Below are positions 12,404 to 36,908 of a stretch of DNA of 36,908 nt, piece by piece. The position numbers were made by a program, and so were the translations under genes. Each line of letters begins with the position of its first letter. The stretch's first letter is position 1. This stretch comes from Oscillospiraceae bacterium (GTDB lineage Bacteria > Bacillota > Clostridia > Oscillospirales > Ruminococcaceae). Location: contig JAAVIE010000140.1 of assembly GCA_014799325.1 (NCBI GenBank), forward strand, positions 1 to 36,908, written 5' to 3'. The notes beneath the pieces are model-generated. The model was not told the origin of the DNA and made no database searches. It saw nothing but the letters and a program-made list of their open reading frames with translations.

Positions 12404-14189
12404 CCTTTAACACCCTCTCTGTTGTAATACTGCGCCTGCAAATTATACATCTCGCTGTATTTGCCGTTCTTTGCCAAAAGTTCGCCATGAGTACCCTGTT
12501 CGACGATCTTTCCCTTTTCCATGAATAAAATATGATCACAAAAGCGTGTGGAGTTCAGACGGTGAGATACAAAAATTGTAGTTTTGTTTTTGGATATTTC
12601 GTGGAATTTAGAATACAATTCGTATTCGGCAATAGAGTCAAGAGCCGCAGTAGGCTCGTCTAAAAGCAAAACATCACCGCCGTGATACAGCGCTCTTGCC
12701 AATGCGATTTTTTGATACTGTCCCCCCGACAGCTCGATCCCCTCATCATCAATAATTTTAGTCAACACCGTTTCGTCGCCCTTTGGCAGACCGCTTAAGA
12801 TCCTGTCCAGCTCCAACACCCGCAAAACCTCGTCATATCTCTCCTGCGAAAAAACATTTCCGCAAATAATATTTTCTCTGATAGTACCCGAAAAAATTTT
12901 GGAATCCTGAAAGACTGTGGCTATCCTGCTTTGCTCTATATTGCGTATATCCTTTTCCCCAAGGTCAATTACGCCCTCATAAGATGAATACAAGCCGGAA
13001 ATAAGTTTTATCAGTGTGGATTTGCCCGAACCGTTTTCTCCCACCACCGCGTAATGCTTTCCTGCCTCAAATCTAAAGGAAAAGCCGTCCAAAATATTCT
13101 CCGTATTGGGATAGTGAAAGCGTATGTCCTGCAGGTGAAGGACAGGCAAATAACAGTCGCTGACCGCCGAATCATACACCTGTATTTCTTGCTCCGCACC
13201 CTCAACATATTCGATATACATATTGAAATTCATCAACCCAAAGGCTAAATCCCCAATTGATGAGGTAAGACCAAATATTACACCCTTTACTGCGGAAATT
13301 GTATTTATATATAGCACAAACTCATCGGCCGGCATATCGCTTGCCACTGCCAAAAAAGCCAAAGCAATATAAGCGGCAGCCTCTCTTAAAAAGTTATCAG
13401 CAGATCGACCAGCGCAGCAAGCGTATCCTTTCTTTGCGTTCGTTTGCATAAATTGAGATACGTTTTTTTATAATACCCGAAAAAGCTTTTTAAAATGCCG
13501 TCGACTCGGTTCAGCCTAATTTCCTTTGCATAAGCATAGTCTGAGGAAATATTGAACACATAGTTTTTATGACGCTCTGCACCGGCAATTTCACTTTGCA
13601 AGTCAAACCGAAACGCCTTTGACTTTGCGGCAAGCAGTATATTTACCGGGATATTTACAAGCACCAATAACGCAACAATCGGATTGAAAAGGCATAAGGT
13701 TACCGTAAAAACCACCAACAGAACTGCATTACTTATAAATATGGGCGAGTTTTTATATATCGAGCCCACCGAAGTCGCTATTGAATTCAGAACAGTGTGT
13801 ATCTTATCGAGAACGGTCGAATCCTCTGTTTTTTCAAAGGGCATTGTCATCGAGATATACTGTATTTTTTCTTTTAGAAAAAATGTGAGCTGCGATAAAG
13901 TGTTTTCCTGAGTAATAGAAAGGAAGTTTTCGGAAAAAGTAACAACGGCATTGATGCCGCAAAAAACCGCAGTTCCCACAAAAAACATCGTTTCATTCTG
14001 TTCTGTTATCGATTTGAGCAGAAATTTAGGGATATAAACGCTTAAAGCCGTAAGTATAAGCCCAGAGAACGCCCGTAAAACATTGAAATAACAACACCGC
14101 ATTTTCGCTCCCAAAGTATTTTGAGAAATTTGCCGTAGCTTTTTATATTTGTTTTGACAGACTTTGTCAAGGAGTACCTCCTTCTGCAT
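12400..14189 (-). pseudogene. ABC transporter half-exporter (ABC3), split by one frameshift
   Basis: TMD half is ORF 13386-14189, NBD half ORF 12400-13449 (GENGSGKST, LSGGQYQ, LLLDEPTAALD). One extra base in the 5-nt homopolymer at 13388-13392 restores ..VDLLITFLREAAAYIALAFLAVA... Confidence 0.85.
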
Positions 14190-14244
14190 AATTTCATTGT
14201 ATAATCATTTTTTATCAACAGTAGAAATTACCTTCATAAAACCG

Positions 14245-18004: not shown

Positions 18005-18034
18005 ACTCTCACCTCTCAACGTTATTATAACACA

Positions 18035-18063
18035 GTATAACACAAAAAAGACCGTTCGTGCAA
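18035..18063 (-). promoter_or_regulatory. Candidate promoter for the ABC exporter operon
   Basis: Minus strand TTGCAC (18058-18063), 17-nt spacer, TTATAC (18035-18040); the -35 overlaps an inverted repeat. Confidence 0.5.
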
Positions 18064-18106: not shown

Positions 18107-18190
18107 CTCTCAAGAATATAGTGCCGGTTTATAGTTCTCTCAGGTAAGTGGTACGAGTATAGACCCGCTCTCAGGGAAAGTTGGTGGTAA
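18107..18190. repeat. Three degenerate direct repeats at 30-31-bp spacing
   Basis: CTCTCA at 18107, 18137 and 18168, the last two as CTCTCAGGkAAr; the first two units share a downstream TATAG segment (TTTATAGTT / AGTATAGAC). Confidence 0.45.
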
Positions 18191-18206
18191 TTTGCTGATT
18201 TAAAAA

Positions 18207-18344
18207 GAATTTCAGAACCGCAAACTTTTATTAAAATTTCTTGAAAAACTGGGAAATTTTAATAAAAGTTTGCTATCCGACTGAGCTTAGAGTTTTGCTT
18301 GAAAAGCTGGGCAAAACTCTAAGCTCAGTCGATTTCTGAAATTC
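18207..18344. repeat. Three-way-junction/double-hairpin inverted-repeat element
   Basis: Outer stem GAATTTCAGAA (18207-18217) / TTCTGAAATTC (18334-18344). Hairpin 1: 21 bp perfect, 18220-18240 / 18253-18273, loop TTGAAAAACTGG. Hairpin 2: 21 bp perfect, 18278-18298 / 18311-18331, loop TTGAAAAGCTGG. Confidence 0.9.
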
Positions 18345-18395
18345 GTGCTATCATGATAGTTGTGCGATCAGTTGTCCGCTTGTAGAAATGTTGTG

Positions 18396-19124
18396 CTAAT
18401 TTTTTAGCGGAACAAGCAGCTCGGTAGCAAAAATGCCTTCTTCATACTGTCTGTTTACGTAGCCGCCGTATTTTTTTGCAATACGGTCAATACGAAACAG
18501 TCCAAATCCGTGCAAGCCCTCCTTCGTAGTCCGAAAAGCGCCTTTTTCAAGCTTAACAGGCGGCGAAGAATTCTGCACCGACAAATAAAGCTGCCCCTTG
18601 AATTTATCAATATACACCCGCATAAAGCGTTCCTCTTGGGGCACTTTTTCACAGGCTTCCATAGCGTTGTCAATAAGATTTCCCAATACCGAACACAACT
18701 CTACATCTGTCATAGCAACACCCTGCGGAATACGCGCCTTGATGTTGAGCTTTACGCCCTTTTGCTCCGCCACCGACAGCTTGCTGCCAAGAACAGCGTC
18801 CGCCATAACGTTGCCTGTTTGTATAGATGTGTCCGCCTGTGTAAGGTCGTCCGCCAGCTCGTCAAGATACTTTTCCAGCTCGCCTTGATCTCCCTCAAGG
18901 CGGTTTTTCATATTCTGGATATGATTGCGGTAGTCGTGCCGCCACGCCTGCATTTGCCGATACATATTCCGTATCTCCTCGGTCTGCTTGCCGATAAGCT
19001 CGCTCTGAAACTCGGAAATGCGCTTGTCCACAAGATGAAAAAAGAGCTTTCTCAAAAGGAAAAAAGCCGCCGTCAGAAATGCAATGCAGAAAATAACGAT
19101 AATGATTATGACAGCCGTTTTCAA
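18396..19124 (-). CDS. GHKL-type sensor histidine kinase with a single N-terminal TM segment
   Basis: 242 aa; WRHDYRNHIQNM H-box, NLIDNAMEAC N-box, GLHGFGLFRI G-box; overlaps the regulator gene. Confidence 0.88.
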   Translation of the reverse strand: MKTAVIIIIVIFCIAFLTAAFFLLRKLFFHLVDKRISEFQSELIGKQTEEIRNMYRQMQAWRHDYRNHIQNMKNRLEGDQGELEKYLDELADDLTQADTSIQTGNVMADAVLGSKLSVAEQKGVKLNIKARIPQGVAMTDVELCSVLGNLIDNAMEACEKVPQEERFMRVYIDKFKGQLYLSVQNSSPPVKLEKGAFRTTKEGLHGFGLFRIDRIAKKYGGYVNRQYEEGIFATELLVPLKN

Positions 19125-19819
19125 TCCCGATCCTCCTTGTAATAGTCAATAAACGCCCTGTTTACGCTGTCGTACAGCCTCCGTGAGATCGGTATTTTTT
19201 CTCCGCTGTCCATGGTGATCTCAGTCTTGGAAACGCTGCTGATATATCCGAGATTCACAACATAGGAGCGGTGGCAGGAAACAAAGCCTTCCCCCAGTTT
19301 TTCAAAAACCGCGCTGAGACCTATAGAGCAGGTTATCTTATTACCGCTGTTCAGCGCTGCCTGGGTTTTCTTTCCAAAGGCTTCAAGATAAATGATATTT
19401 TTGGAGGAAGTGATCACTGAGCCCTCACAGCAGGGCAAAATTATCCTGTTTTTGGGCTTGCGGCCGTGGGAATACCTGTCAAGAGTCATAAACAGCTTAT
19501 CCTTATCCACAGGCTTCAGCAGATAATGCAGGGCTTCCACTTCATAGCCGTCGCCCATATACTCCGAAAAGCCCGTAATGAACACAATAGGCAGCATATC
19601 GCCTTTGGCGCGGAGAGCTTTGGCAAGCTCCATGCCGTTCATTTTGCCCATTTCTATATCAAGCAGCAGAAGATCGCATTGGTCGTCGGGATAGCTGAAC
19701 AGGAACTGTTCCGCCGAGCTGTATTCTTTTATTACGGTCTGACTGTTCCATTCGGTCAGCATTTTCCGCAAAGCCTTGACCTGATTGCTGTCGTCGTCGC
19801 ATATTGCTATTGTTATCAC
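19121..19819 (-). CDS. LytTR-family response regulator
   Basis: MITIAICDDDSNQVKAL receiver with LLLLDIEMGKMNGMEL; C-terminal LytTR FVSCHRSYVVNLGYI..PISRRLYDSVNRAF. Confidence 0.92.
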   Translation of the reverse strand: MITIAICDDDSNQVKALRKMLTEWNSQTVIKEYSSAEQFLFSYPDDQCDLLLLDIEMGKMNGMELAKALRAKGDMLPIVFITGFSEYMGDGYEVEALHYLLKPVDKDKLFMTLDRYSHGRKPKNRIILPCCEGSVITSSKNIIYLEAFGKKTQAALNSGNKITCSIGLSAVFEKLGEGFVSCHRSYVVNLGYISSVSKTEITMDSGEKIPISRRLYDSVNRAFIDYYKEDRD

Positions 19820-19882: not shown

Positions 19883-19947
19883 GAAGAAAAAATACAGGAT
19901 ATTGCATTTTATCGAAAAATTTAAGGATTATTTAATAAATTCCATGT

Positions 19948-19973
19948 TATAATAACCTCAAACCGCGGAAAGA
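19948..19973 (+). promoter_or_regulatory. Motif copy 1: TATAATAACCTCAAACCGCGGAAAGA
   Basis: 26-bp exact match to copy 2, 108 bp apart; each begins with a perfect -10 box. Confidence 0.75.
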
Positions 19974-19989
19974 GGAAATATTTATTTTA

Positions 19990-20055
19990 ATGTTTGAGAT
20001 TATTTTATCATTTCAAAGGAATCGAATTTTGCCCTGCAAAATTCTCTTTATATGA
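19990..20055 (+). CDS. Possible 21-aa small ORF between the two motif copies
   Basis: ATG at 19990: MFEIILSFQRNRILPCKILFI*; purine-rich AAAGAGGAAA upstream but spacing is long. Confidence 0.2.
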   Translation: MFEIILSFQRNRILPCKILFI

Positions 20056-20081
20056 TATAATAACCTCAAACCGCGGAAAGA
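20056..20081 (+). promoter_or_regulatory. Motif copy 2: TATAATAACCTCAAACCGCGGAAAGA
   Basis: Same 26 bp as copy 1; 36 bp before the permease start codon. Confidence 0.75.
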
Positions 20082-20117
20082 AAAATTTAGAGAACAGTTT
20101 CCAAAAGGAGCAGTGTA

Positions 20118-22481: not shown

Positions 22482-23246
22482 ATGACAAATATTTTGGAAG
22501 TAAAAGACCTTTGCAAAACCTACATTGTAAACAAAAGACAGAACAACGTGCTGAAAAATGTGAATTTCAGCATTAAAGAAGGGGAAATGGTGGCCGTAAT
22601 GGGTCCCTCGGGTTCGGGAAAATCCACCCTGCTGTACTCCGTTTCGGGAATGGACAATATTACTGCGGGAGAGGTGTATTTCTGCGGGAAAAATCTTGCA
22701 AAGCTGGGGCAGAAAGAGCTGGCGGAGCTTAGACTTGACGAAATGGGGTTTATTTTCCAGCAGATGTATATGCTGAAAAATCTTTTGGTGCTGGATAACA
22801 TAATATTACCTGCCTGTCAGTCGGACAAAATCAAGGAAAGCCGCAAAAAGACTGTGGAGAGGGGCTGCGAGCTGATGCGCAAGCTGGGAATTATAGACAT
22901 TGCCGACAACGATATAAACGAGGTGTCGGGAGGACAGCTCCAGCGTGCCTGCATAAGCAGAAGTATGATAAACGATCCAAAGATGATATTTGCAGACGAG
23001 CCGACGGGCGCGCTGAACCGCACCTCCTCCGATGAGGTAATGGAGGAGCTGGCAAGGCTTAATTCAGAAGGCACAACGATCATGCTTGTGACACATGATG
23101 TTAAGGTTGCCGCAAAATGCACAAGAATTCTGTACATTGTTGACGGAAACATAAAAGGAGAGTATAATTTAGATAAATACGATAAGTCCAAGCTGAGAGA
23201 GCGCGAAAGAGAGCTTAACGGCTGGCTTATGGAAATGGGCTGGTAA
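22482..23246 (+). CDS. ABC transporter ATP-binding protein partner of the FtsX permease
   Basis: 254 aa; GPSGSGKSTLLYSVSGMD, VSGGQLQRACISR, IFADEPTGALN (MacB/BceA-like). Confidence 0.93.
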   Translation: MTNILEVKDLCKTYIVNKRQNNVLKNVNFSIKEGEMVAVMGPSGSGKSTLLYSVSGMDNITAGEVYFCGKNLAKLGQKELAELRLDEMGFIFQQMYMLKNLLVLDNIILPACQSDKIKESRKKTVERGCELMRKLGIIDIADNDINEVSGGQLQRACISRSMINDPKMIFADEPTGALNRTSSDEVMEELARLNSEGTTIMLVTHDVKVAAKCTRILYIVDGNIKGEYNLDKYDKSKLRERERELNGWLMEMGW

Positions 23247-23250
23247 AAAA

Positions 23251-23913
23251 TTGACCGACATTCTGATAGTTGAAGATAATAAGGAACTGGCAGAGCTGCT
23301 GTGTGATTTTCTCCGTAAAGATAATTACACGGTGTCAGCTGCCGAAAATGCAGAAAAAGCCTTGGAGCTGTATCAAAAATACGGCGCAAGGCTTATTGTG
23401 CTGGATATAATGCTGCCCCATAAAGACGGCTTCTGGCTGTGCGAAAAAATACGGGCGGAAAGCAACACGCCCATACTGATAGTCAGCGCAAAAACGGAAA
23501 AGGACGATAAGCTGCTGGGGCTTAATCTTGGAGCGGACGACTATATCGAAAAGCCATACGATATTGATATACTGCTGGCGAAGATCGGCGGGATATTCAA
23601 GCGGAGATATTCCCTTGAGGAGCTTGTTGACGGCGATATCAAGATAAACAAAATACAGCGCACCGTATACAAAAACGGCAATTCCATTGAAATGACCGCC
23701 AAGGAATTTGACCTGCTGGTACTGCTTTTGGAAAACAAGGGACGCACTCTTTCCAAGGAATACATTTTCGACACGGTCTGGGGCAAGGACAGCTTTTCCG
23801 AGCCGCAGACACTTACCGTCCATATAAAATGGCTTCGTCAGAAAATTGAAGAAGATCCGAGGGATCCGCAGAAGATAATGACTGTTTGGGGCGTGGGGTA
23901 CAGGTATTTATGA
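23251..23913 (+). CDS. OmpR/PhoB-type response regulator
   Basis: TTG start; LIVEDNKELAELLCDFLR receiver, LDIMLPHKDGF, trans_reg_C wHTH ending TVWGVGYRYL. Confidence 0.93.
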   Translation: MTDILIVEDNKELAELLCDFLRKDNYTVSAAENAEKALELYQKYGARLIVLDIMLPHKDGFWLCEKIRAESNTPILIVSAKTEKDDKLLGLNLGADDYIEKPYDIDILLAKIGGIFKRRYSLEELVDGDIKINKIQRTVYKNGNSIEMTAKEFDLLVLLLENKGRTLSKEYIFDTVWGKDSFSEPQTLTVHIKWLRQKIEEDPRDPQKIMTVWGVGYRYL

Positions 23914-25142
23914 AAGCGTGGAGAAATATTTTCGCAGTTTTTGCCGTAATGCTCGGCTTGATCTTTGCAGGCGCAAACCTGCTTTTGATAAGCCTTAATT
24001 CATCGGATTCGGGCAGACAATACCGAGTTGAGATCAACCGAGCCGCCCTGCAAATCGAGCAAAACGGATCTGACAGCCTTGATCTGTCGCAGTACAAATA
24101 TTTGGACAGTGTTACAGAATACGGAGAGGATTTTTATAATTCAAACAGCGATTATTTCATAAAAGAAATCGGCGGAAAGCTTTACCGCTTTGACTACTCT
24201 GCACGGAATAACGAAAACCGCCTTTTGATAACAACGGTGGTAAATGTTATTATTGCGGTAACTGGGCTGGCGGTTTTCGTGCTTTTGCTGTATATCCGCC
24301 AAAAAATTCTTTCTCCATTTAATACGCTTTCGGATATTCCCTACAAGCTGTCAAAGGGCAATCTTACAGCTCCCGTAAAGGAAAGCAAAAACCGCTATTT
24401 CGGCAAGTTTTTATGGGGTATTGATCTTTTGAGAGAAAATATTGAACAGCAAAAACAGCGGGAGCTTGAACTCCAAAAGGAAAAGAAAACTCTCCTGCTG
24501 TCGCTGTCACACGATGTAAAAACTCCACTTTCGGCGATCAAGCTGTACTCAAAGGCGCTGTCCAAGGATCTTTACAATGACAAGGAAAAACAAAGGGAGA
24601 TCGCCGAAAGCATCAACCAAAAGGCCGATGAGATAGAGAATTATATTTCACAGATAATCACCGCTTCAAGAGAGGATTTTTTGAGCCTTGATGTTGAACA
24701 GGGCGAGTTTTATCTGTCGGATCTGGTCAAAAGCATTTCGGAATATTACAGCGAAAAGCTTTCTCTTGTCAAAACGGAATTTACTGTTGGAGAATACAAA
24801 AACACCCTCATTTCGGGCGACCTGAACCGCAGTATTGAGGTGCTTCAGAATGTAATGGAAAATGCGCTGAAATACGGCAACGGAAAGAAAATAGAACTGC
24901 TGTTCCCTGACGAGGACGAGGGGGTGCTTATTTCGGTAAAGAACAGCGGAAACACTTTGGCAAGGTCGGAGCTGCCGCATATTTTCGAGAGCTTTCAGAG
25001 GGGAGAAAACGCAAAAAACATCGGTGGAAGCGGGCTGGGATTGTATATTGCAAGACAGCTCATGCACAAAATGAAAGGGGAAATTTTTGCGGAGATCGAT
25101 AATGATGCTTTTACGGTGACGGCGGTGTTTGGTAAGGCGTAA
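23910..25142 (+). CDS. Membrane sensor histidine kinase
   Basis: MKAWRNIFAVFAVMLGL; HAMP-like region, LSLSHDVKTPLSAIKLYSKAL H-box, GGSGLGLYIARQLM G-box; 4-nt overlap with the regulator. Confidence 0.93.
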   Translation: MKAWRNIFAVFAVMLGLIFAGANLLLISLNSSDSGRQYRVEINRAALQIEQNGSDSLDLSQYKYLDSVTEYGEDFYNSNSDYFIKEIGGKLYRFDYSARNNENRLLITTVVNVIIAVTGLAVFVLLLYIRQKILSPFNTLSDIPYKLSKGNLTAPVKESKNRYFGKFLWGIDLLRENIEQQKQRELELQKEKKTLLLSLSHDVKTPLSAIKLYSKALSKDLYNDKEKQREIAESINQKADEIENYISQIITASREDFLSLDVEQGEFYLSDLVKSISEYYSEKLSLVKTEFTVGEYKNTLISGDLNRSIEVLQNVMENALKYGNGKKIELLFPDEDEGVLISVKNSGNTLARSELPHIFESFQRGENAKNIGGSGLGLYIARQLMHKMKGEIFAEIDNDAFTVTAVFGKA

Positions 25143-25156
25143 AAGTGCGTATAACA

Positions 25157-25210
25157 AAGCGTATTTACAAGATCTGTTTCGGATTTTTGTAAATGCGCTT
25201 TTTTATTTTT
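25157..25210 (+). terminator. Intrinsic terminator of the FtsX/TCS operon
   Basis: AAGCGTATTTACAA (25157-25170) / TTGTAAATGCGCTT (25187-25200), 14 bp with one G-U, then TTTTATTTTT. Confidence 0.9.
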
Positions 25211-25319
25211 CATAAGCCATTGTAATTCACCCTTTCTTTGTGCGATAATATCAAAAAGCGGTCAAAAAAAGACAGCCCAAAAACGACCCGCCAAACGGTG
25301 AAAAAACAACGTAATTTTG

Positions 25320-25348
25320 TTGACTTTATCAGCCTTGAATAGTATAAT
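25320..25348 (+). promoter_or_regulatory. Near-consensus promoter for the vWA/LRR operon
   Basis: TTGACT (25320-25325), 17-nt spacer, TATAAT (25343-25348). Confidence 0.85.
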
Positions 25349-25409
25349 ATAATAGGAAAGTTATCGAAAAAAGAAGCTTTACATAAAGAAAAACAAAGGA
25401 GTAATTATT

Positions 25410-26780
25410 GTGAACGAAGAAGAAAAAAAGTCAAAAACCGAAAAGATAGCCGCCGAAATTCTCCAGATGTCGAAAAATAAACTTCTGGTAAATATGCGGT
25501 TTATGGATATGTCACTCAATAGGATAAATCCCTCTCCCCGCCCCGATATTACTGCCTGTACCGCCTGTGACGGCGAGTCTTATGTATATGACCCCGTACA
25601 TATTCTGACTGCATATAAGGTTGAGGAAAACGTGCCTATACGCAATTTCCTCCACTCTGTTTTCCACTGCGTTTTCAAGCATTTTTTCATAAATACTCTG
25701 ATAGATCAGGAGCTGTGGGATCTTGCCTGCGATATTGCGGTGGAAAGCGCTATAAATGACCTTAATCTGCCTTATTTGAATATCCTGCGCGCAGGTGAAC
25801 AGATGCAGTTTTTTGAAAATATCAAGAAGAAAATAAACATCGTTTCCGCCGAAAAAATATACAACTATCTACTTGAAAAGCATCTGCCGCCCTCTACCGT
25901 GGAAAAGCTGTCGGTGCTGTTTAAGGGGGACGAGCATTTATTGTGGTATATGACCGAGGACGAAAAGGCAGGGCTTGGACTTGGGCTTCAAGGCGCGTCT
26001 CCCACCTCAATTTCCTCTTTGGAAAGGATTAGTATGCTGGCTGAAAGCTGGGGCGGTATCGCACTGCGTATGCAGACGGAGCTGGAGGCTTTCGGGAAGA
26101 GACAGGGCACGGAAGCGGGACTTTTGACGCAAAATCTTAAGGAGATCAACCGTGAGAGATACAACTACACGGAATTCCTCAAAAAATTTGCTGTCAGAGG
26201 GGAGATAATGAAGATCAACGTTGACGAGTTCGACTATAACTATTACACCTACGGCTTGAAGCTGTATGAAAATATGCCCCTTATCGAGCCGCTGGAGTAC
26301 AAGGACGTTAAGAGAATAAGGGATTTTGTTATCGCCATAGATACCTCGGGGTCGACCTCGGGAGAGCTGGTGCAGACATTTGTGCAGAAAACGTATAATG
26401 TGCTGAAAAGCACCGAAAGCTTCTTCACAAAAATAAATCTGCATATAATCCAGTGCGACGCGGCTATCCAGGAAGATGTGAAGATCACCACCCAGGAGGA
26501 ATTTGACCGCTATCTCAACAATATGGAGCTTCACGGAATGGGCGGTACGGATTTTCGACCTGTGTTCAGCTATGTTAATTCTTTGGTGGATATTGGCGAG
26601 TTTGAGAATTTAAAGGGATTGATCTATTTTACAGACGGTTTCGGCAGCTTTCCTGCCAAAAAACCGCCTTATGACGCCGCCTTTGTTTTCATTGAGGACG
26701 AAATGAAAGGGGCGGGCTTCAACAACTATGACGTTCCCTCTTGGGCGATAAAAATGGTACTCAGAAAGGACGAAATATGA
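25410..26780 (+). CDS. vWA-like domain protein of DUF2201/metallopeptidase-like type
   Basis: 456 aa; MIDAS-like AIDTSGSTSGEL, GMGGTDFRPVF, IYFTDGFGSFP; N-terminal FLHSVFHCVFKHFF. GTG start with GGAG upstream. Confidence 0.85.
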   Translation: MNEEEKKSKTEKIAAEILQMSKNKLLVNMRFMDMSLNRINPSPRPDITACTACDGESYVYDPVHILTAYKVEENVPIRNFLHSVFHCVFKHFFINTLIDQELWDLACDIAVESAINDLNLPYLNILRAGEQMQFFENIKKKINIVSAEKIYNYLLEKHLPPSTVEKLSVLFKGDEHLLWYMTEDEKAGLGLGLQGASPTSISSLERISMLAESWGGIALRMQTELEAFGKRQGTEAGLLTQNLKEINRERYNYTEFLKKFAVRGEIMKINVDEFDYNYYTYGLKLYENMPLIEPLEYKDVKRIRDFVIAIDTSGSTSGELVQTFVQKTYNVLKSTESFFTKINLHIIQCDAAIQEDVKITTQEEFDRYLNNMELHGMGGTDFRPVFSYVNSLVDIGEFENLKGLIYFTDGFGSFPAKKPPYDAAFVFIEDEMKGAGFNNYDVPSWAIKMVLRKDEI

Positions 26781-28324
26781 TAGAGCTGTATAAGGAAGAT
26801 CCGCTTTATTTAGCGGTCATGCACAACGATATTCCGAAGATAAAAAGTCTGAAAAACAAGGGATTTACATTATCGGAGTTTGTGGTAAAGCTGCTTACCT
26901 GTCCCGTAGGGGGTGCGGCAAAGGTGGGTGAATTCACCCTGCCTTGGTATGGACATATAAAGGCTGTCAAGGGTTTGAGCGGTCAGAAGCTGATAGACGT
27001 TCTGCATAGGCTCACCGAGGAGCTTGGGGAAAAGATGTATTGTTCAAGCGCTTATGATTGGGAATACAGCAAGCGTTTTTATGAGCCTGAGTTGTTTGCC
27101 TGCGTGCTGGACTGCTTTGACAACAGAAAGATCCAAAAGAAAAAGGTCTGGACTTTCATAATAGAAAACGACCGTGTGGAGCTTATGGCTATTGCTGCGG
27201 AACACGGCTGGCTGAAAATGCCGAAAAAGCGTGACGAGCTTATAGAACAAGCTTCAAGGTTGGGTAAGACCGAGTGTCTTGCATGGCTGTTGGATTTTAA
27301 GGAGAAAACTGCCGATCTTGCCAAGGAAAAGGAAAAGGCGGAAAAAAAGCTGATGCGTGAGCTTAACGCCGATCCCAATTCGGTATCCGAGATCAAAAAG
27401 CGATTTGGTTTTAATAAGAAAGAGGACGGAACCCTTGCGGTTACAAGCTGTAAAAGAGGTCTGGGGAGCAGCTTGGAAGTTACCGTACCCGAGAAAGTGG
27501 GAAAGGATACTGTGACGGAGATCGGAACTTATGCCTTTTCTACATTCGCAGGAAGGCTTACCAAGGAATGTAACGAATTCCGTCATAATATCGAAAAAGT
27601 CAGGCTCCCCGATACCATAAAGGCAATACGGTCAAACGCCTTTTCTCACTGCGTTTCCATAAAGGAGATCAATATTCCCGACGGAGTTGAGGTCATTGAG
27701 GAGAGGGCTTTCAGCATGTGCAGGAGCGTAAAAGAGATGACTGTTCCCGATTCTGTGAAAAGCGTGGGGAAATCCGCATTTGCATATTGCCGAGCACTTG
27801 AAAGGATCAAGCTTCCAAAGAGTCTTGAGCAGATCCCCGGCGGTACCTTTGCGGACTGCATAATGCTTGAAAGGATCCAGTTGCCCGAAAAGCTTAAGGA
27901 GATAGGAAGATATGCTTTTAACAGATGCCTTGCCCTTAAAGAGATAGATATTCCCAAGGGCGTGGAGATATTGCGCACATACAGCTATAACCACTGTTAT
28001 GCGTTGGAAAAAGCGGTTTTTCATGAGGGACTCAAAAAGCTGGAAAAGAATGTTTTTGAGTGCTGCAAGAGCTTGAAAGAAGTTGTTCTTCCCGAGGGTT
28101 TGGAGGAGATAGGTCATTTGACCTTTGCGGGCTGTCTATCCCTTGAAAAAATATATCTGCCCCGATCACTCAGGAAAATGCAGAATTATACTGTGAATAC
28201 CGTAACGCCACAGAGCGTTTTTGACAACTGCCCTAAGCTGACTGCTATGGTGTATAAGGGGTCCTATTCGGAAAAGTATTGTAAGAGAAATAATATTCCT
28301 TATGAAATAAGAGAAGAAAATTAA
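26777..28324 (+). CDS. LRR paralogue 1: short ankyrin-like N-terminus plus BspA-type LRRs (about 9)
   Basis: MIELYKEDPLYLAVMHNDIPKIKSLKNKGFTL; GWLKMPKKRDELIEQASRLGKTECLAWLLDFK; LRR units of type IxIPDGVEVIEERAFSMCRSVKE. 4-nt ATGA overlap with the vWA gene. Confidence 0.88.
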   Translation: MIELYKEDPLYLAVMHNDIPKIKSLKNKGFTLSEFVVKLLTCPVGGAAKVGEFTLPWYGHIKAVKGLSGQKLIDVLHRLTEELGEKMYCSSAYDWEYSKRFYEPELFACVLDCFDNRKIQKKKVWTFIIENDRVELMAIAAEHGWLKMPKKRDELIEQASRLGKTECLAWLLDFKEKTADLAKEKEKAEKKLMRELNADPNSVSEIKKRFGFNKKEDGTLAVTSCKRGLGSSLEVTVPEKVGKDTVTEIGTYAFSTFAGRLTKECNEFRHNIEKVRLPDTIKAIRSNAFSHCVSIKEINIPDGVEVIEERAFSMCRSVKEMTVPDSVKSVGKSAFAYCRALERIKLPKSLEQIPGGTFADCIMLERIQLPEKLKEIGRYAFNRCLALKEIDIPKGVEILRTYSYNHCYALEKAVFHEGLKKLEKNVFECCKSLKEVVLPEGLEEIGHLTFAGCLSLEKIYLPRSLRKMQNYTVNTVTPQSVFDNCPKLTAMVYKGSYSEKYCKRNNIPYEIREEN

Positions 28325-28372
28325 CTCGGATAAGAAAGTTTATTTTTAGAGGGAATTTTGGTAGAAGAAATT

Positions 28373-30484
28373 ATGACCGAGAGTGAAAAGAAAGTAATTG
28401 AGCTTGAGAGATCGGTGCTTTGTGATACGCCCGAGGAGCTGGACAAGGTCTGCAAGGAGCTTGGGGATATGTATGGGAGAAGTCGGGCGCTGGGGCTGGC
28501 TTGTCATTTCAGAGGGCTTGAGTGGGTGAAGGTGCTGGTGGGTAACGGCGTTGGGTTTAAGCAGGAGAGAATGCAATTGTTTCCGAGCCTGTGCTATATG
28601 AGCCGCCGCGGAGATCACTATTTTTCTATAAGCGATAATTTTATGTTCTGCCTTTTAGATCTGAAAATTATGTTAAGGAGATTGCCGCCTCAGCTTATGG
28701 AAATTGGCGAAAACGAACCGAGCGACCGTATGTTTGCATTTGAAGAGGTAATTAACGCTATTTCCGAAGAAGAACGGATCAAGTGCGTGAGGTATTTTAT
28801 AGAACTGAACGATAAGGAGATTTGCGATTTACGGGAGCTTTTGTACTATGCCATAATATACTGCGATTTTAAGGTGACGGAGCTTTTGAGGGAAAAAGGA
28901 GTAACTATCCCGCAAAGGACCTGTGAAATGATGCTGATAGGAGATCATACAGGTCAAACCCAGTTTTTTATTAACACTGCATATATGAGGGCGAAGGAGT
29001 TTGTTTGGACTATCGGTGAATTGTTAAAGGATATGGGGGAAAACAGTGTTATCGGCGGATATATCAGGGACATTGAGAGTTTAAAAGACAAATTGATCCG
29101 TGAACATGAACCCGAAGCATTTGAGTGCTTTCTTACTCATTTTGATATAAAAAGGATCAGTCAGAAGAAGATCATGCAGGAAATTATTTTGAGCGGAAGC
29201 CCTGCGCTTTTGGCGGTCTGCGAAAAGCTCGGCTGGCTGAAAATGCCCAAAAAGCGCGATGAGATGATACAGTTTGCGGCGGATAACGACATGACCGAGT
29301 GTGCTGCTTGGCTTCTGGACTTCAAAAAGCGTACCTCCGACCCTGCGGCGGAACGGGAGAAGGCGGAGAAAAAGCTGCAAAGAGAGCTTAATGCAGATCC
29401 CTTCTCCCTCACAGAAATGAAAAAGATGTGGGGTTTTGAAAAACGCGGGGACGGCGGTATCGTTATAACGCGGTATAAGGGGAAGCGAGACGAGATTCTT
29501 GTACCCGAGAAAATAGGCAAGGATATTGTAAAGAAAATTGGCAAAGAAGCATTTTCCCCTGCCGCGTCCCGACTTACAGAAGAACAGAAGGAGCGGCGGA
29601 AAAATATCACAAGGATCGGTTTGCCCAAAACGTTGGAGGTTATAGGAGAAAGGGCTTTTTATGAGTGCAGAGAGCTTGTTTCGGTACATATTTCAGAGGG
29701 AACGGAAGAGATCGGAGAGAATGCCTTTTCTTCCTGTCGAAACCTTTCCAAGATAAATATCCCTGTGTCGGTAAAGGAGATCGGGAAAACCGCATTTTAC
29801 GGCTGTACCGGTCTTAAGTCAATAGATATTCCAATGGGGATAACAGAGATCAGCGAGGGCTGTTTTGCAGGCTGCACAAGCTTGGAAAGGCTTGAAATTC
29901 CCTCAAACATCAAAAAAATAGGAGATTGGGCGTTCAGAAACTGTATTTTCCTTGAAGAAGCTTTTTTATCCGACGGGGTAGAGGAGATCGGCAATTTTGC
30001 TTTTTACCGCTGTATAAGGCTTTTGAAAATAAACATTCCCCTTTCGGTAAAGAAAATAGGAGGGAACGCATTTTCATGCTGTGAAAGTCTGGTCTCCATA
30101 AATCTGCCTGACGGGATAACAGAAATCAGCAACAGCACTTTTTCGGAGTGCGGCTCGCTGAAAACGGTCACGATCCCGCCCACTGTCAGGAAAATAGGCA
30201 GAGAGGCGTTTGCACGGTGCAGTTCCCTTGAAGAAATAAAAATACCCGAAGGTGTGAAAGATATTGGTCAGGAGGCATTTATAAAATGCGGCAGTCTGAG
30301 ATCCGTAACGCTGCCGAGATCGGTAAGATCAATGTGGTGTGTCGGCTTGAAGGGGTATAAGCCGAAAACGGTCTTTGACGGCTGTAATGATCTTACTGTT
30401 AGAGTGCCCGCCAGAAGCTGCGCAGAAGAATACTGCAAGGAAAACGATATCAAGTATACGATCATGGAGGAAGAAAATGACTGA
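28373..30484 (+). CDS. LRR paralogue 2: ankyrin-like N-terminus plus BspA-type LRRs (about 11)
   Basis: Start MTESEKKVIELERSV chosen by alignment with paralogues; ALGLACHFRGLEWVKVLVGNGV; 23-aa LRR units. Confidence 0.88.
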   Translation: MTESEKKVIELERSVLCDTPEELDKVCKELGDMYGRSRALGLACHFRGLEWVKVLVGNGVGFKQERMQLFPSLCYMSRRGDHYFSISDNFMFCLLDLKIMLRRLPPQLMEIGENEPSDRMFAFEEVINAISEEERIKCVRYFIELNDKEICDLRELLYYAIIYCDFKVTELLREKGVTIPQRTCEMMLIGDHTGQTQFFINTAYMRAKEFVWTIGELLKDMGENSVIGGYIRDIESLKDKLIREHEPEAFECFLTHFDIKRISQKKIMQEIILSGSPALLAVCEKLGWLKMPKKRDEMIQFAADNDMTECAAWLLDFKKRTSDPAAEREKAEKKLQRELNADPFSLTEMKKMWGFEKRGDGGIVITRYKGKRDEILVPEKIGKDIVKKIGKEAFSPAASRLTEEQKERRKNITRIGLPKTLEVIGERAFYECRELVSVHISEGTEEIGENAFSSCRNLSKINIPVSVKEIGKTAFYGCTGLKSIDIPMGITEISEGCFAGCTSLERLEIPSNIKKIGDWAFRNCIFLEEAFLSDGVEEIGNFAFYRCIRLLKINIPLSVKKIGGNAFSCCESLVSINLPDGITEISNSTFSECGSLKTVTIPPTVRKIGREAFARCSSLEEIKIPEGVKDIGQEAFIKCGSLRSVTLPRSVRSMWCVGLKGYKPKTVFDGCNDLTVRVPARSCAEEYCKENDIKYTIMEEEND

Positions 30485-32300
30485 GACCGAGAAAATTTTA
30501 GAGCTTGAAAGAGCTGTGTTTTTTGACACTCCCGAAGAGCTTGACAGAACTTGCAAGCGGCTTGGGAGCTTTGACAAGAGAAGCCGCGCCCTGGGACTTG
30601 CCTGCCATTTCAGAGGGCTTGAATGGGTAAAGGTGCTGGTACAAAACGGTGTGGTGTTCAAGCATATCGATATGCGGCAGTTTCAGAACAGATGCTATAC
30701 AACGCCTAAAGGGCAGCTTTATTATGCTTTATATGACGACTTTATGTTTTCTCTTGTAGATTCAAGGCTGCAGATAAGGAAAATGTCCTATCTTCAGACT
30801 AAAGATAACGATTTGGTTCCCGGAGACTGTATACGCGCCTTTGATAATGAATTTGACGCTGTTTCCCATGAAGAAAGAATGGAATGTGTAAGGTATTTTA
30901 CAGAGCTTAATGACAGCAATATCTGCGATCTGCAAAGGCTTTTGTACCTTGCCATAATATACTGCGATTATGAGGTCACCGAGCTGTTGAGGGAAAAAGG
31001 GATCACTATCTCAAAAAGCGCCCGTGAAATGCTGACAGGGGAAAATGAGCAGGATCATTATTTCTTCTGGTATTATTGCCTTAACATAAGATCTATGACA
31101 GCAAAGGAATTTTTATGGTCGGTGGAGGAGCTGTCAAAGGATATGGAGGAAAAGGAAAAGATAACTGTCACTGCGTGGCTTATGGATAATATAAAACCCA
31201 GATTCTTTTTTGAGCCCGAGGTTTTTGAGTGCGTTCTTTCCCGTTTTAATCCGAGAAAATTCAATCAGAAGCAAACCATGCAGCAAATTATTATGAAAGA
31301 GCGCCCCGAGCTTTTGGCGATCTGTGAAAAGCACGGCTGGCTGAAAATGCCAAAAAAGCGTGATGAGATGATACAGTTTGCGGCGGATAACGACAAGACA
31401 GAGTGTACCGCGTGGCTGTTGGAATTCAAAAACCGCACAGCAGATCTGAAAGCGGAGCAGGAAAAGGCGGATAAAAGGCTTATGCAGCAGCTTAACGCCG
31501 ATCCCAATTCCGTTACCGAACTTAAAAAGACTTGGGGCTTTGAAAAGTTAGAGGGCGGCGGTATCGTTATAACGCGGTACAAGGGTAAGCACACCGAGGT
31601 GGAAGTGCCCGAGAAGATCGGTAAGGAAGTCGTGAGGGAGATAGGCGAGCGGGCTTTTTCGCCTAACGCGTTAAGGCTCACAGAGGAACAGAAGGGGTTC
31701 CGAAGGCAGATAACAAAGGTTATTTTGCCCCGGACTGTGGAAGCTGTAAGAGAGGGGGCTTTTTACGACTGCGAGAGACTTTGCTCCATAAATCTGCCCG
31801 AGAGTGTTAAGAGTATAGGTGCAAGCGCATTTTGCGGCTGTAAGTCTCTTCCCGAAATAGATATCCCTTTGTCGGTAGAGGAGATAGGATTAAGCGCATT
31901 TTTGTGCTGTGAGAGCCTTGCTTCCGTTGTGCTGCCCGAGGGGCTAACCGTAATAAAGGGCGGCTGTTTTTCGGGGTGCAAGCTGTTGAAAAACGTGGCA
32001 ATTCCCTCTTCTGTTAAGAAAATAGAAAAGTGGGCTTTTCTGCGGTGCTTTACTCTTGAAGAGATCGTTATTCCCGAGGGGGTGGAGGAGATCTGTGAAA
32101 AGGTCTTTGCTGACTGCCCTGAGCTTAAGTCCGTTGCTTTTCCCGAATCCTTGAAGTCGGTCAAGAATTATAAGCGCAAGGGGTGGGAGCTTGAAACTGT
32201 TTTTGCGGGCAGCGAAAAGGTGACTGTTACGGTCAGCGAAAAAAGCTATGCCGAAAGGTATTGTAAGAGAAACAATATAAATTATATAACTAAAGAATAA
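30477..32300 (+). CDS. LRR paralogue 3: ankyrin-like N-terminus plus BspA-type LRRs (about 7)
   Basis: MTETEKILELERAVFFDTPEELDRTCKRLG; 8-nt overlap with the upstream gene (the ORF track's 30375 start is upstream). Confidence 0.88.
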   Translation: MTETEKILELERAVFFDTPEELDRTCKRLGSFDKRSRALGLACHFRGLEWVKVLVQNGVVFKHIDMRQFQNRCYTTPKGQLYYALYDDFMFSLVDSRLQIRKMSYLQTKDNDLVPGDCIRAFDNEFDAVSHEERMECVRYFTELNDSNICDLQRLLYLAIIYCDYEVTELLREKGITISKSAREMLTGENEQDHYFFWYYCLNIRSMTAKEFLWSVEELSKDMEEKEKITVTAWLMDNIKPRFFFEPEVFECVLSRFNPRKFNQKQTMQQIIMKERPELLAICEKHGWLKMPKKRDEMIQFAADNDKTECTAWLLEFKNRTADLKAEQEKADKRLMQQLNADPNSVTELKKTWGFEKLEGGGIVITRYKGKHTEVEVPEKIGKEVVREIGERAFSPNALRLTEEQKGFRRQITKVILPRTVEAVREGAFYDCERLCSINLPESVKSIGASAFCGCKSLPEIDIPLSVEEIGLSAFLCCESLASVVLPEGLTVIKGGCFSGCKLLKNVAIPSSVKKIEKWAFLRCFTLEEIVIPEGVEEICEKVFADCPELKSVAFPESLKSVKNYKRKGWELETVFAGSEKVTVTVSEKSYAERYCKRNNINYITKE

Positions 32301-32329
32301 TAAAAAATCAAAAAATTAAGGTAGAAAAT

Positions 32330-34246
32330 ATGACTGTTGAGGAAAAGACAAGAGTTATTGAAAAAGCGGTGCTTTTCAGCACTCCGGAGACATTGGAGAA
32401 GCTCTTTGACGATATAGGAGCTGTGGATAATATGAACCGGGCATTGGGGCTTGCCTGCCATTTCCGAGGAGTGGAATGGGTGAAAGTGCTGGTTAAAAAT
32501 GGGGCAGTGTTTAAAGAGGGGAAAAAAGGTGTGTATAATGGCATACACTTTGATAATCCAAACGGTGTGTCCTATTACGATTATCAGAAGGATTTTTCTT
32601 TTTCTCTCCTTGACCCTAAATTTTGGATAAAGGTAATGACCCAAAAGTGGAAGGGAGAGGAAGGCATAGCCAGGGACAGTATATCAGCCTTTGGAAAAGT
32701 AATTGACAGCATTTCCGAAGAGGAAAGACTGGAATGCGTCAGGTATTTTATCGAGCTTAACGACAGCAGCGTCTGCAATCTGCAGGATCTTTTGTATTAT
32801 GCAATAGTACACTGTGACTATAAAGTCGTAGAGCTTTTGAGAAAAAAAGGGCTTACAATACCTCAGGTCGCTGTGGATATACTGATAAACGGATATAAAG
32901 CAAATATGGAGGGCGATTTTTGGTTTTACACCTTTAATCTGTCCGATATGACCGTGCAGGAGCTAATGTGGATCATAAGCGAGCTGTCAAAGGATCTGGA
33001 GAGCGGCAAGCTTATTACAAGCAATTATTATTTTATATATAGCATAATATATGAATTTTCGGAGGAGCCATGGGTCTTTGACTATATCCTCTCACATTTT
33101 GACAATAAAAAGATCAATAAAAAGAAAGCTATGGAGCTGATCATTTCAATGGAAAAGCCCGGGCTTTTGGTGGTTTGCGAAAAACACGGCTGGCTGAAAA
33201 TGCCGAGGAAGCGTGACGAGATGATAAAGTTCGCTTCTGACAACAACAAGACCGAGTGTACCGCATGGCTTTTGGACTTTAAAAAACGCACCGCCGATCT
33301 TAAGGCGGAGCAAGAAAAGGCGGAGAAAAAGCTGATGAGGGAGCTTAATGCCGATCCCAATTCCATTACGGAATTAAAAAAGCTGTGGGCTTATGAGAAA
33401 CGCAGTGAAGGCGGTATTGTCCTGACACGGTACAAGGGAAAACACACCAAGGTTATTGTTCCTGAAAAAATAGGCAAGGACATTGTAAGGGAGATAGGCG
33501 AGTATGCTTTTTCTCCCGATGCTAAACGGCTTACGAAGGAGCAGGCAGGATTGCGGCTTAATATAACCAAGATCGTTTTGCCCGAAACTGTTGAGGTTAT
33601 AGGAAAATATGCTTTTTGCGAATGTGAAAAGCTTTCCTCCGTAAATATTCCAAAGGCTGTCAGAGTCCTTGATGACAATGTGTTTTTCCGTTGTTTTAAC
33701 CTGATCTCCGTAAATATTCCAAATGGGGTCGGCAGTATAGGAGAAAACACATTTTACGCCTGTAAAAAGCTTTCGGAAATAAATATTCCGTCATCTGTAA
33801 CAGAAATAGGAACAAATGCTTTTAGCGGCTGTGTAAAGCTTACCTCCGCAGTTCTGTCTGAGGGGATAACAAAAATCAGAAACGGCTGTTTTTCAAGCTG
33901 TGAAAATCTGAAAAAGGTCGCAATTCCGCCCACTGTCAAAGAAATAGGAACTTTGGCATTTTGGGGGTGTTCGGAGCTTGAAGAAATAACCATACCCGAA
34001 GGTGTTTGTGAGATAGGCGAAAAGGTATTTGCCGACTGTCCAAAACTCAGATCGGTCATTCTCCCAAAATCGGTAAAGCTTATCAAAAACTCTGTGCTGA
34101 AAGGCGAGGGGACAAAGAATATTTTTTCGGAATGGTTCGTTTCGGAGTGCAAGGACTTGACTGTGACCGTGCCTGCCGATAGCTATGCAGAAGAATACTG
34201 CAAAAGCAATAACATAAATTACATCATTATGGAGGAAGAAAAATGA
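32330..34246 (+). CDS. LRR paralogue 4: ankyrin-like N-terminus plus BspA-type LRRs (about 8)
   Basis: MTVEEKTRVIEKAVLFSTPETLEKLFDDIG; same architecture. Confidence 0.88.
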   Translation: MTVEEKTRVIEKAVLFSTPETLEKLFDDIGAVDNMNRALGLACHFRGVEWVKVLVKNGAVFKEGKKGVYNGIHFDNPNGVSYYDYQKDFSFSLLDPKFWIKVMTQKWKGEEGIARDSISAFGKVIDSISEEERLECVRYFIELNDSSVCNLQDLLYYAIVHCDYKVVELLRKKGLTIPQVAVDILINGYKANMEGDFWFYTFNLSDMTVQELMWIISELSKDLESGKLITSNYYFIYSIIYEFSEEPWVFDYILSHFDNKKINKKKAMELIISMEKPGLLVVCEKHGWLKMPRKRDEMIKFASDNNKTECTAWLLDFKKRTADLKAEQEKAEKKLMRELNADPNSITELKKLWAYEKRSEGGIVLTRYKGKHTKVIVPEKIGKDIVREIGEYAFSPDAKRLTKEQAGLRLNITKIVLPETVEVIGKYAFCECEKLSSVNIPKAVRVLDDNVFFRCFNLISVNIPNGVGSIGENTFYACKKLSEINIPSSVTEIGTNAFSGCVKLTSAVLSEGITKIRNGCFSSCENLKKVAIPPTVKEIGTLAFWGCSELEEITIPEGVCEIGEKVFADCPKLRSVILPKSVKLIKNSVLKGEGTKNIFSEWFVSECKDLTVTVPADSYAEEYCKSNNINYIIMEEEK

Positions 34247-36228
34247 CCGAAACTGCAAAGACAGCCGTACTTGAAAAAGCAGTGCTTTTCAGCTCACCGG
34301 AGGAGCTAAGCTTGACATGCAGAAAGCTGGGAACGGTGGAGAAAAGCAGCCGTGCCCTGGGATTTGCCTGCCATTTCCGCGGGGTGGAATGGGTAAAGGT
34401 GCTTGTGGATAACGGCGTGGTGTTCAGAACAGAAGATATGGGGCTTTTTCGGCGTGTGCAGTATCTGAATTTCTGGAAGGGAGATTATTATACCTCAGAA
34501 GATGATTTTATGTTTTCTCTCCTTGATCCGAAAACTATTTTACATAGAGCTTCCTATGATCCCGTATACAAGGGTGAGATCCCGAAGGACAGCCTGCTTG
34601 CATTCAATGAAGAGGTGGACGCCATATCAGAGGAGGAACGGCTGAAATGCGTGCGGTATTTTATCCGGCTTAACGATAAAAAGGTCTGCGACTTGGAAAG
34701 GCTTTTGTATCTTGCAATAACACACTGCGATCATAAGGTAACGGAGCTTCTGAGGGAAAAAGGGATACGACTGCCGCAAAGAGCGCTTAAAATGCTGACG
34801 GGCAGGGAGGACGCACTTCCCTATCGTTATTCCGATTTTTGTGATAATGTGACCTTTACGACTGCGGAGGAATTTGCCAAGGCTGCGGCGGAGCTGGCGA
34901 AGGATCTTGATGAAAATATGGTCGTCTCCGTTAACACCCGTCTACAGAGTATTTTTCAAAAAGGGTTATTATATGAGCCTGAGGCTTTGGATCAGATCAT
35001 TGCGCATTTTGATACGAAAATACTTGGTCAAAAAAGAACTATGGAGGAATTTGTTCTGCTTGACCGTTCCGAGCTTTTGGCGGTCTGTGAAAAGCATGGC
35101 TGGCTGAGTAAGCCGAAGAAAAGAGACGAGCTGATAAAATTTGCCGCCGATAATGAAAAGACCGAGTGTACCGCATGGCTGCTGGAATTTAAAAATAACA
35201 CTGCCGATCTCGTGAAAGAGCGGGAAAAGGCGGAGAAAAAGCTTATGCGGGAGCTTAACGCCGATCCTAATTCGGTGACGGAATTAAAAAAGCTGTGGGG
35301 CTTTGAAAAGCGTAATGACGGCGGTATCGTTATAACACGGTACAAGGGCAAGCAGACCGAGGTGAGAGTGCCCGACAGGATAGGAAAGGACATTGTAAGG
35401 GAGATCGGGGAGTATGCGTTTTCTCCAAGAGGAGCGCGGCTGACAGCGGAGCAGAAAAAGCTTCGGAAAAGCATCACCAAGGTCACCTTGCCCGAAACGG
35501 TGACGGAGATAGAGCCGGGCGCTTTTTACGACTGCTACGGGCTTACCTCCGTAAATATACCCAAGGCTGTCAGGGTTATTGAGAATAACGTTTTTACTCA
35601 TTGTACAAGCCTTTCCGACATTGATATTTCGGGTGAAGTTGAAATAATAAGATCGGGGGCATTTTACGGCTGTAAAAATCTTATGAAAATAGATATTCCC
35701 GATTCTGTAAAAGAAATAGGATCAAGCACTTTTAGCAACTGCGAAAAGATCTCGGAGATACATATCCCCTCATCGGTAAAGCAGATAGGAGTAGAGGCAT
35801 TTTGCAGCTGTAAAAGCCTGGTATCGGCAGATATTTTGGGTGAAATAACAGCGATCGAGATAGGCTGTTTTGCATTCTGTGATAAACTGCAAAGGGTAAC
35901 TTTACCACCTACTGTCAGGAAAATAAGGAGAATGGCATTTGGACGCTGTCTGAGTCTGGAAGAGATAATTATTCCCGAGGGAGTAAACGAGCTTGGGGAA
36001 AGTGTTTTCTTAGACTGCCCGAAGCTGAGATCTGTGGTATTTCCCAAATCGCTGAATAAGATCAGAAATACTATGCAGGGGGAGGAACAGAAAAGCATCT
36101 TTTCCGGGCGGTCTCAACCTGAGTGCAAAGACTTGACTGTGACCGTGCCTGCCGATAGTTTTGCGGAGGAATACTGCAGATCGAATAATATACATTACAT
36201 CATCAAAGACAACATGGAGGACAAATAA
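34243..36228 (+). CDS. LRR paralogue 5: ankyrin-like N-terminus plus BspA-type LRRs (about 9)
   Basis: MTETAKTAVLEKAVLFSSPEELSLTCRKLG; ATGA overlap with paralogue 4. Confidence 0.88.
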   Translation: MTETAKTAVLEKAVLFSSPEELSLTCRKLGTVEKSSRALGFACHFRGVEWVKVLVDNGVVFRTEDMGLFRRVQYLNFWKGDYYTSEDDFMFSLLDPKTILHRASYDPVYKGEIPKDSLLAFNEEVDAISEEERLKCVRYFIRLNDKKVCDLERLLYLAITHCDHKVTELLREKGIRLPQRALKMLTGREDALPYRYSDFCDNVTFTTAEEFAKAAAELAKDLDENMVVSVNTRLQSIFQKGLLYEPEALDQIIAHFDTKILGQKRTMEEFVLLDRSELLAVCEKHGWLSKPKKRDELIKFAADNEKTECTAWLLEFKNNTADLVKEREKAEKKLMRELNADPNSVTELKKLWGFEKRNDGGIVITRYKGKQTEVRVPDRIGKDIVREIGEYAFSPRGARLTAEQKKLRKSITKVTLPETVTEIEPGAFYDCYGLTSVNIPKAVRVIENNVFTHCTSLSDIDISGEVEIIRSGAFYGCKNLMKIDIPDSVKEIGSSTFSNCEKISEIHIPSSVKQIGVEAFCSCKSLVSADILGEITAIEIGCFAFCDKLQRVTLPPTVRKIRRMAFGRCLSLEEIIIPEGVNELGESVFLDCPKLRSVVFPKSLNKIRNTMQGEEQKSIFSGRSQPECKDLTVTVPADSFAEEYCRSNNIHYIIKDNMEDK

Positions 36229-36908
36229 TGGAATATTCAAGAGCAAAGTTAGAAACGCTGGAAAACGCTGTACTTACAAAGACGCCCCAGGAAATTTCCG
36301 CTATATATAAGCAGCTGGGCGAACTTATGAACACAGCGAGAGCCTTGGGGCTGGCTTGCCGCTTCAGAGGTCTGCCTTATGTAAAGGCTTTAGTAGAGGG
36401 CGGCGCAAGCTTTGCCTATACACGCCCTCCTCACGGCACATATTACACAATTTACTACTGGCTGGCGCCTTTGGAAATGACAAAGGCTATGCGGTGCGCC
36501 GCCTTTATGGACGTAAGAGACGGATTTTTTACGAACACAGTAAGGAATACCAGCATCAGGAGAGAGGAGATAAAAACCTTTATCGCCCTGCCTTTGGAGG
36601 AAAGGACTAATATCGTAAGGTATCTTTGCGAGAACCGCGAAAAGATCGCTCTTGATATTGACGAACTGCTGTTTTACTCCATTATAAGCGGTACTAAGGG
36701 TATCACGAAGATCTTAAAGGAATACGGCGCGAAGATATCCGAAGCCCGCACCAAGGAGCTTACCGACACAGGACGGGGTTTTCAGTGGACGGAATTTTCC
36801 TATATGATAGATTATTTTGACGATAAAGAGTATATGGAAAAGATCAAGCTGCTGTATGACGAAATGGGCGGTAAAACTCTGCGGTATTCCGACGCTATAT
36901 ATTACGGA
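36228..36908 (+). CDS. Paralogue 6, partial: divergent N-terminal ankyrin-like region, runs off the window
   Basis: Not in the ORF track because it is open to the end. Reads MEYSRAKLETLENAVLTKTPQEISAIYKQLGELMNTARALGLACRFRGLPYVKALVEGGASF...; TAATG 1-nt overlap with paralogue 5. Confidence 0.85.
   Translation, partial: MEYSRAKLETLENAVLTKTPQEISAIYKQLGELMNTARALGLACRFRGLPYVKALVEGGASFAYTRPPHGTYYTIYYWLAPLEMTKAMRCAAFMDVRDGFFTNTVRNTSIRREEIKTFIALPLEERTNIVRYLCENREKIALDIDELLFYSIISGTKGITKILKEYGAKISEARTKELTDTGRGFQWTEFSYMIDYFDDKEYMEKIKLLYDEMGGKTLRYSDAIYYG

Follow-up and report, generated by a model that had tools for sequence, protein, structure and literature searches.

A three-part MoxR-vWA module with an LRR/ankyrin-like component in gut and rumen Clostridia, and its apparent expansion to 22 linked copies in one lineage

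MoxR ATPases and their von Willebrand factor A (vWA) partners form a two-part motor known in bacterial stress and conflict systems. The 36,908-nucleotide stretch analysed here (the window) is one whole contig, JAAVIE010000140.1 or C140, of a 164-contig, 2.64 Mb Oscillospiraceae assembly, and it ends in a vWA/DUF2201 gene followed by a tandem array of genes whose products join ankyrin-like helical repeats to BspA-type leucine-rich repeats (LRRs). Comparison with related loci places these genes in a module of LRR/ankyrin-like protein, vWA protein and MoxR ATPase, a composition that can be stated with high confidence. In the window lineage the presumed recognition part appears to have grown to 22 linked genes, the end of the array in the window being set by the assembly. 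The parts, their linkage and order, the intactness and cytoplasmic character of the copies and their growth in number are all read from sequence. The results define a three-part MoxR-vWA module with an LRR/ankyrin component that is common among Clostridia of gut and rumen, give the DUF2201 proteins, whose function lacks assignment, a partner family, and provide in one lineage a test of intracellular receptor repertoires built on one ATPase core.

A three-part module across Clostridia

A scan of GTDB genomes returned 80 loci, nearly all titled Clostridia and from gut and rumen metagenome-assembled genomes. When everything within 6 kb of the vWA gene is clustered in 74 loci, the vWA family is found in all 74, the ATPase in 58 and the LRR family in 55, and the next family in only 7. 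Strand tells the same story: among 44 loci with more than 4 kb on either side of the vWA gene, scored by six-frame profile searches, the ATPase shares the strand of the vWA gene in 43, an LRR/ankyrin gene does so in 36, and both do in 35. MoxR is adjacent to the vWA gene in most loci, and in relatives with complete genomes or long contigs the three genes are grouped, the LRR gene coming first, in the middle or last. The original prediction named unlinked homologues, decayed copies and secreted surface proteins as findings that would count against it; in the homologous loci surveyed the vWA-LRR linkage is kept. Nor is the linkage a by-product of LRR abundance, because the 2.9 Mb genome G146 has a single LRR_5 place and it lies inside the vWA-MoxR locus.

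One LRR gene is usual. The 44 loci include 25 with one, 6 with two and 5 with three to six, and the window array is the largest seen among the loci surveyed. Its first description as a vWA-led set needs correcting to a three-part system of LRR protein, vWA protein and MoxR. Distribution is patchy: among 71 genomes of the genus, 5 contain the vWA gene. No carriage by phages or plasmids was found in IMG/VR, PLSDB or named phages, which give only distant vWA or AAA matches. Seven faecal records titled 'Bacteriophage sp.', with MoxR identities of 43-52%, were rejected as phage: they come without annotation, and the two inspected are marked UNVERIFIED. No conserved genomic site for the system was found in a comparison limited by contig breaks; a PEPCK gene adjoins MoxR in the window genome, and a 97% identical copy sits on a contig without the system in the congener G252. 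Two variations in composition may be recorded: at the G146 locus the LRR component carries a fused DUF4132 (L077:13491-15857), and the operons of L132 and L149 include a gene for a DUF6273 protein.

The vWA protein and the array in the window

The near-consensus promoter of the original prediction is borne out as the top of 35 promoter-like sites, matching consensus at 11 of 12 positions, and AGGAG at 25397-25401 precedes the GTG start at 25410. The vWA/DUF2201-like gene is likewise confirmed by matches over cut-off to PF09967 (DUF2201, 42 bits) and PF13203 (DUF2201_N, 26.7 bits), and its AlphaFold2 model (pLDDT, the predicted local distance difference test score, 84) finds integrin I/vWA domains as best structures in Foldseek. 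An alignment of 43 rows holds D311, S313, S315, T380 and D409 invariant, an intact metal ion-dependent adhesion site (MIDAS, DxSxS). H82, H86 and H91 are also invariant, and position 83 is never Glu. Pfam describes DUF2201_N as a putative metallopeptidase; here the region is probably an inactive zincin-like domain, perhaps metal-binding, because the HExxH glutamate is replaced by M, T, I, S, V, L or C in 43 of 43 proteins though the three histidines stay. The vWA domain closes the protein, Pfam finding no effector domain on it, and none of the 43 vWA proteins has a beta-propeller fused after the vWA domain.

Downstream, every overlap and gap claimed for the vWA-paralogue junctions holds on checking: ATGA at 26777, a gap of about 50 nt before 28376, an 8-nt overlap at 30477, a 29-nt gap before 32330, ATGA at 34243 and a 1-nt overlap at 36228. 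The frame of paralogue 2 is open from 28358, with a likely ATG at 28376. The BspA-type LRRs attributed to the five complete paralogues are present in each as PF13306 LRR_5 (E 1e-54 to 1e-74). The ankyrin-like label stands in part: Pfam matches are weak and under cut-off, but the AlphaFold2 model of paralogue 4 (pLDDT 88) does have helical repeats in its N-terminal half, to about residue 340, followed by a BspA-type LRR domain whose best structure matches are BspA-type LRR proteins (PDB 4gt6, 4fs7, 6mlx). The shared central block (GWLKMPKKRDE..AWLLDFK) is real and is the most conserved part of the paralogues. At the DNA level the tandem copies are visible as four to five repeats of 187-300 nt, spaced about 1.9-2.1 kb apart. 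A hydropathy scan, which served as the export check, detected neither a signal peptide nor a membrane segment among the paralogues; all look cytoplasmic, and secreted surface proteins are not what the array encodes on this measure. No RNA elements were found in the window, and Rfam gave no match there.

Continuation of the array on a second contig

Rightward extension, suggested at the outset, leads from the window end to contig C97 (37,737 bases) of the same genome. Paralogue 4 matches 64 places in its own genome, mostly on the window contig, C97 and a third contig, C62. Read from its end inward on the minus strand, C97 opens with a paralogue without an N-terminus; 16 more paralogues follow and, beyond them, a MoxR-type AAA+ ATPase. 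The window part of paralogue 6 has as its best match residues 3-229 of the third paralogue of G252 (67% identity), and the C97 remainder continues in that same single protein. A second congener, G256, has vWA gene, six paralogues and ATPase on a single contig, in an order that corresponds to window paralogue 1, paralogues 2-5, paralogue 6 and the C97 copies of 588, 536 and 540 residues; L097, a locus from another record, also has vWA gene, six paralogues and ATPase within one contig, with the last four paralogues in matching order. C140 and C97 are taken as neighbors because the halves of paralogue 6 match one G252 protein and because of this collinearity. The contig ends have CGGA (4 nt) in common with the frame kept, which is weak by itself, and share no overlap of at least 15 nt.

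Joined in this way, the locus would run vWA - 22 ankyrin-like/LRR paralogues - MoxR, 24 genes in about 34 kb, with intergenic gaps of at most about 90 nt and one exception (Table 1). The MoxR partner that the original prediction expected of the vWA protein would then lie at the far end of the array. The profile PF20030 bpMoxR, of the MoxR of beta-propeller ternary systems, is matched by 31 of 31 MoxR members, the one in the window genome exactly at cut-off.

Table 1. Genes and sites of the locus; positions are those of the window unless prefixed C97
Feature	Position	Strand	Remarks
Promoter-like site TTGACT-17-TATAAT	25320..25348	+	consensus match only
vWA protein, 456 residues, N-terminal DUF2201_N, C-terminal vWA	25410..26780	+	Pfam, AlphaFold2, Foldseek
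Paralogue 1, 515 residues: short ankyrin-like part, conserved block, LRR_5	26777..28324	+	ortholog of G252 no. 1 and G256 no. 1
Paralogue 2	28376..30484	+	one of four window-lineage copies of G252 no. 2
Paralogue 3	30477..32300	+	G252 no. 2 subfamily
Paralogue 4	32330..34246	+	G252 no. 2 subfamily
Paralogue 5	34243..36228	+	G252 no. 2 subfamily
Paralogue 6, first 227 residues	36228..36908	+	runs off contig; remainder assigned to C97 by inference
Paralogue 6 remainder, 378 residues, first open reading frame of C97	C97:36600-37736	-	66% to G252 no. 3 residues 229-604
MoxR AAA+ ATPase	C97:15070-16620	-	AAA_5 34 bits, Walker A GAPGIGKT, Walker B ILFLDEIN

Expansion and rates of change

Two architectures make up the array. 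Helical repeats come first and LRRs last in 12 of the 22 paralogues; ten consecutive C97 copies (23214-33280) have the reverse order, LRRs first, with a copy of the conserved block (AWLLDYKN) at the C-terminal end of most. Two paralogue relatives are unlinked, on C4 and C9. By this comparison the array is a lineage-specific expansion, because a single G252 gene is represented by the four paralogues 2-5, the C97 copies of 540 and 519 residues form a pair, and the reverse-order copies have nothing similar at the corresponding position in G256 and L097. Decay has hardly touched it: 21 of 22 copies are open, counting paralogue 6 as read across the proposed join, and the single frame break falls in the reverse-order copy at C97 24585-25544, whose C-terminal part is in another frame through either decay or an assembly error. 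The last G256 paralogue is likewise split between two frames.

The ATPase is the slowest-evolving part of the system and the LRR proteins are the fastest. Over 55 loci mean identity is 56% for MoxR and 47% for the vWA protein, and MoxR is the higher in 1485 of 1485 pairs; between the window genome and G252, MoxR is 88% identical, the vWA protein 86% and the paralogues 48-72%. Within the paralogues the same comparison gives 64-78% for the central block, 39-58% for the N-terminal part and 47-72% for the LRRs. Paralogues 2-5 are 53-56% identical to each other and 67-76% in the central block, and in this group LRR frame positions are identical at fractions of 0.83-1.0 and exposed ones mostly at 0.12-0.54. 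A conserved docking site combined with variable binding surfaces would give such a pattern.

A candidate mechanism and its alternatives

Could the paralogues be recognition subunits on one shared MoxR-vWA motor? This is the reading we lean towards, with modest confidence. It envisages a cytoplasmic three-part machine in which MoxR would supply ATP-driven remodelling, the vWA protein would couple to MoxR through its MIDAS site, and each helical-repeat/LRR protein would dock on the common vWA-MoxR core through its central block. The N-terminal helical repeats and exposed LRR surface of each paralogue may bind a different partner, and multiplying the subunits in the window lineage would widen the partner set. 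Those partners would most likely be met under conflict or stress; proteins of phages or of other foreign origin might be examples, as might protein complexes that have been damaged. The original prediction proposed interchangeable recognition or adaptor subunits, with which copy-number variation, faster change and variable exposed LRR positions are consistent; its description of the copies needs a further correction, in that ten of them have the reverse domain order.

A few relatives carry additional genes within the module. At L101:13590-14495 a SIR2_2 protein (E 1.4e-7; weak AbiH) is encoded between the LRR gene and the ATPase, about 16 nt from one and 6 nt from the other; L103:18295-18765 and L107:13539-14012 encode proteins of about 157 residues, 70% identical and unrecognized by Pfam, with a HEPN-type RNRLIH motif and a 4-nt overlap with the MoxR start; and in G114 the operon continues into a gene for a protein kinase, adjoined by genes for a second vWA protein and a PP2C phosphatase. 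Domains of these kinds are known from conflict systems, and their presence weakly favors a conflict or stress role. Several points weigh on the other side. The C140-C97 join is supported by homology and gene order and not by reads, and the interaction of LRR protein, vWA protein and MoxR is itself a prediction. Variability at exposed sites is also ordinary for LRR proteins and gives no sign of hypermutation or positive selection. No effector gene is recognized between vWA and MoxR at the window locus, PADLOC returns no convincing match but only weak partial AAA matches, and with a SIR2 gene in one locus and a HEPN-like gene in two, effectors are no regular part of the module.

A more specific version of the conflict role casts the array as an NLR-like (nucleotide-binding leucine-rich repeat receptor-like) repertoire: 22 intracellular LRR/ankyrin receptors, each for a different foreign or danger signal, feeding one MoxR-vWA signalling motor and growing by tandem duplication and domain rearrangement. 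We regard that as tentative, and a defence repertoire in the strict sense as equally tentative. A housekeeping chaperone is a little less likely still. The MoxR-vWA pair would then mature or metallate enzymes as RavA-ViaA and NorQ-NorD do, with the LRR/ankyrin proteins as client adaptors. Several studied bacterial MoxR-vWA pairs act in this way (PMC9976466, PMC10585395), the invariant His triad of the vWA protein could bind metal, and both vWA and MoxR are clearly constrained; however, no enzyme gene is linked (the next neighbor family reaches 7 of 74 loci), the system is patchy within one genus, and 22 diverging adaptors seem too many for a client list.

The expansion itself might be neutral or selfish, with LRR/ankyrin genes that duplicate easily by recombination and most copies idle. 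LRR_5 is common in the window genome (61 places), the tandem DNA similarity favors unequal crossing over, and one reverse-order copy has its frame break. Yet the other 21 copies are open (again across the proposed join), the order of orthologs is kept between species, and paralogues 2-5 have diverged to 53-56% identity while holding the central block much higher, all of which make idle copies improbable. The least likely reading makes the LRR proteins BspA-like surface adhesins or binding proteins, assembled with the help of vWA-MoxR. The best structures are indeed LRR proteins of the BspA type, several with a described cell-surface location, but hydropathy shows neither signal peptide nor membrane segment in any copy, and the genome offers an internal contrast in its own C62 LRR array, which does carry signal-like N-termini. 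Recognition subunits on a shared motor remain the reading we prefer.

Relation to known systems

MoxR-vWA three-part systems have been defined with VMAP, iSTAND, FtsH or beta-propeller parts, with iSTAND2 and TERNS3 added later (PMC7159879, PMC8195603); ankyrin, leucine-rich repeats and LRR go unmentioned in PMC7159879. The system described here resembles them in its MoxR and vWA pair (through the proposed join at the window locus), its MIDAS, its third component (LRR/ankyrin in 55 of 74 loci), its slow core with a fast, variable third part, and the bpMoxR matches of all its MoxR members. It differs in that the third component is a BspA-LRR/ankyrin protein in up to 22 copies, that the vWA protein has DUF2201_N and no effector domain, that most loci lack an effector gene (none at the window locus, a SIR2_2 or HEPN-like gene in 3 relatives only), and that its loci come from gut and rumen Clostridia rather than multicellular phyla. 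No paralogue matches the VMAP, iSTAND or FtsH third components, Pfam finding LRR families and weak ankyrin only. By build the system looks like a MoxR-vWA three-part system in an LRR/ankyrin variant, and it falls outside every named subtype, since none of the tested subtype features is present. The literature searched on DUF2201, on MoxR with LRR/ankyrin, on YehL/YehP and on BspA arrays leaves the module undescribed, most subscription papers lying outside that search.

RavA-ViaA and NorQ-NorD also encode a MoxR AAA+ protein together with a vWA co-chaperone, but they act on respiratory enzymes, genes for which are not linked here, and we know of no LRR/ankyrin array as part of either. Within the window genome a second DUF2201 vWA protein, on contig C88, has the same domain pair (28% identity) and an adjoining AAA_5 gene; it differs in having no LRR gene, its neighbors being a second AAA protein with lid_6 and a 469-residue protein without family. 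The same C88 region (L026, 1137-12458) also encodes a 1029-residue protein with a NOV_C domain. The BspA-type LRR proteins of known structure share the LRR fold with the paralogues, which differ from them in lacking an export signal, in their fused helical repeats and in their tie to vWA-MoxR.

Other features of the genome and window

Contig C62 (L025, 5943-18291) holds a second tandem LRR_5 array, most of its members with signal-like N-termini and with C-terminal zinc-ribbon-like CxxC motifs; these proteins are apparently exported, and the layout of the array has no relation to that in the window. In the window, short stretches at 18164-18224, 18333-18404 and 19944-20090 have many further occurrences in G252 and G256, mostly at 75-93% identity, and are probably dispersed repeats of the genus. 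Successive minus-strand ABC-transporter open reading frames occupy 10649-18043, with a regulator pair, sensor-kinase-like and LytTR-like, beside them at 18396-19819.

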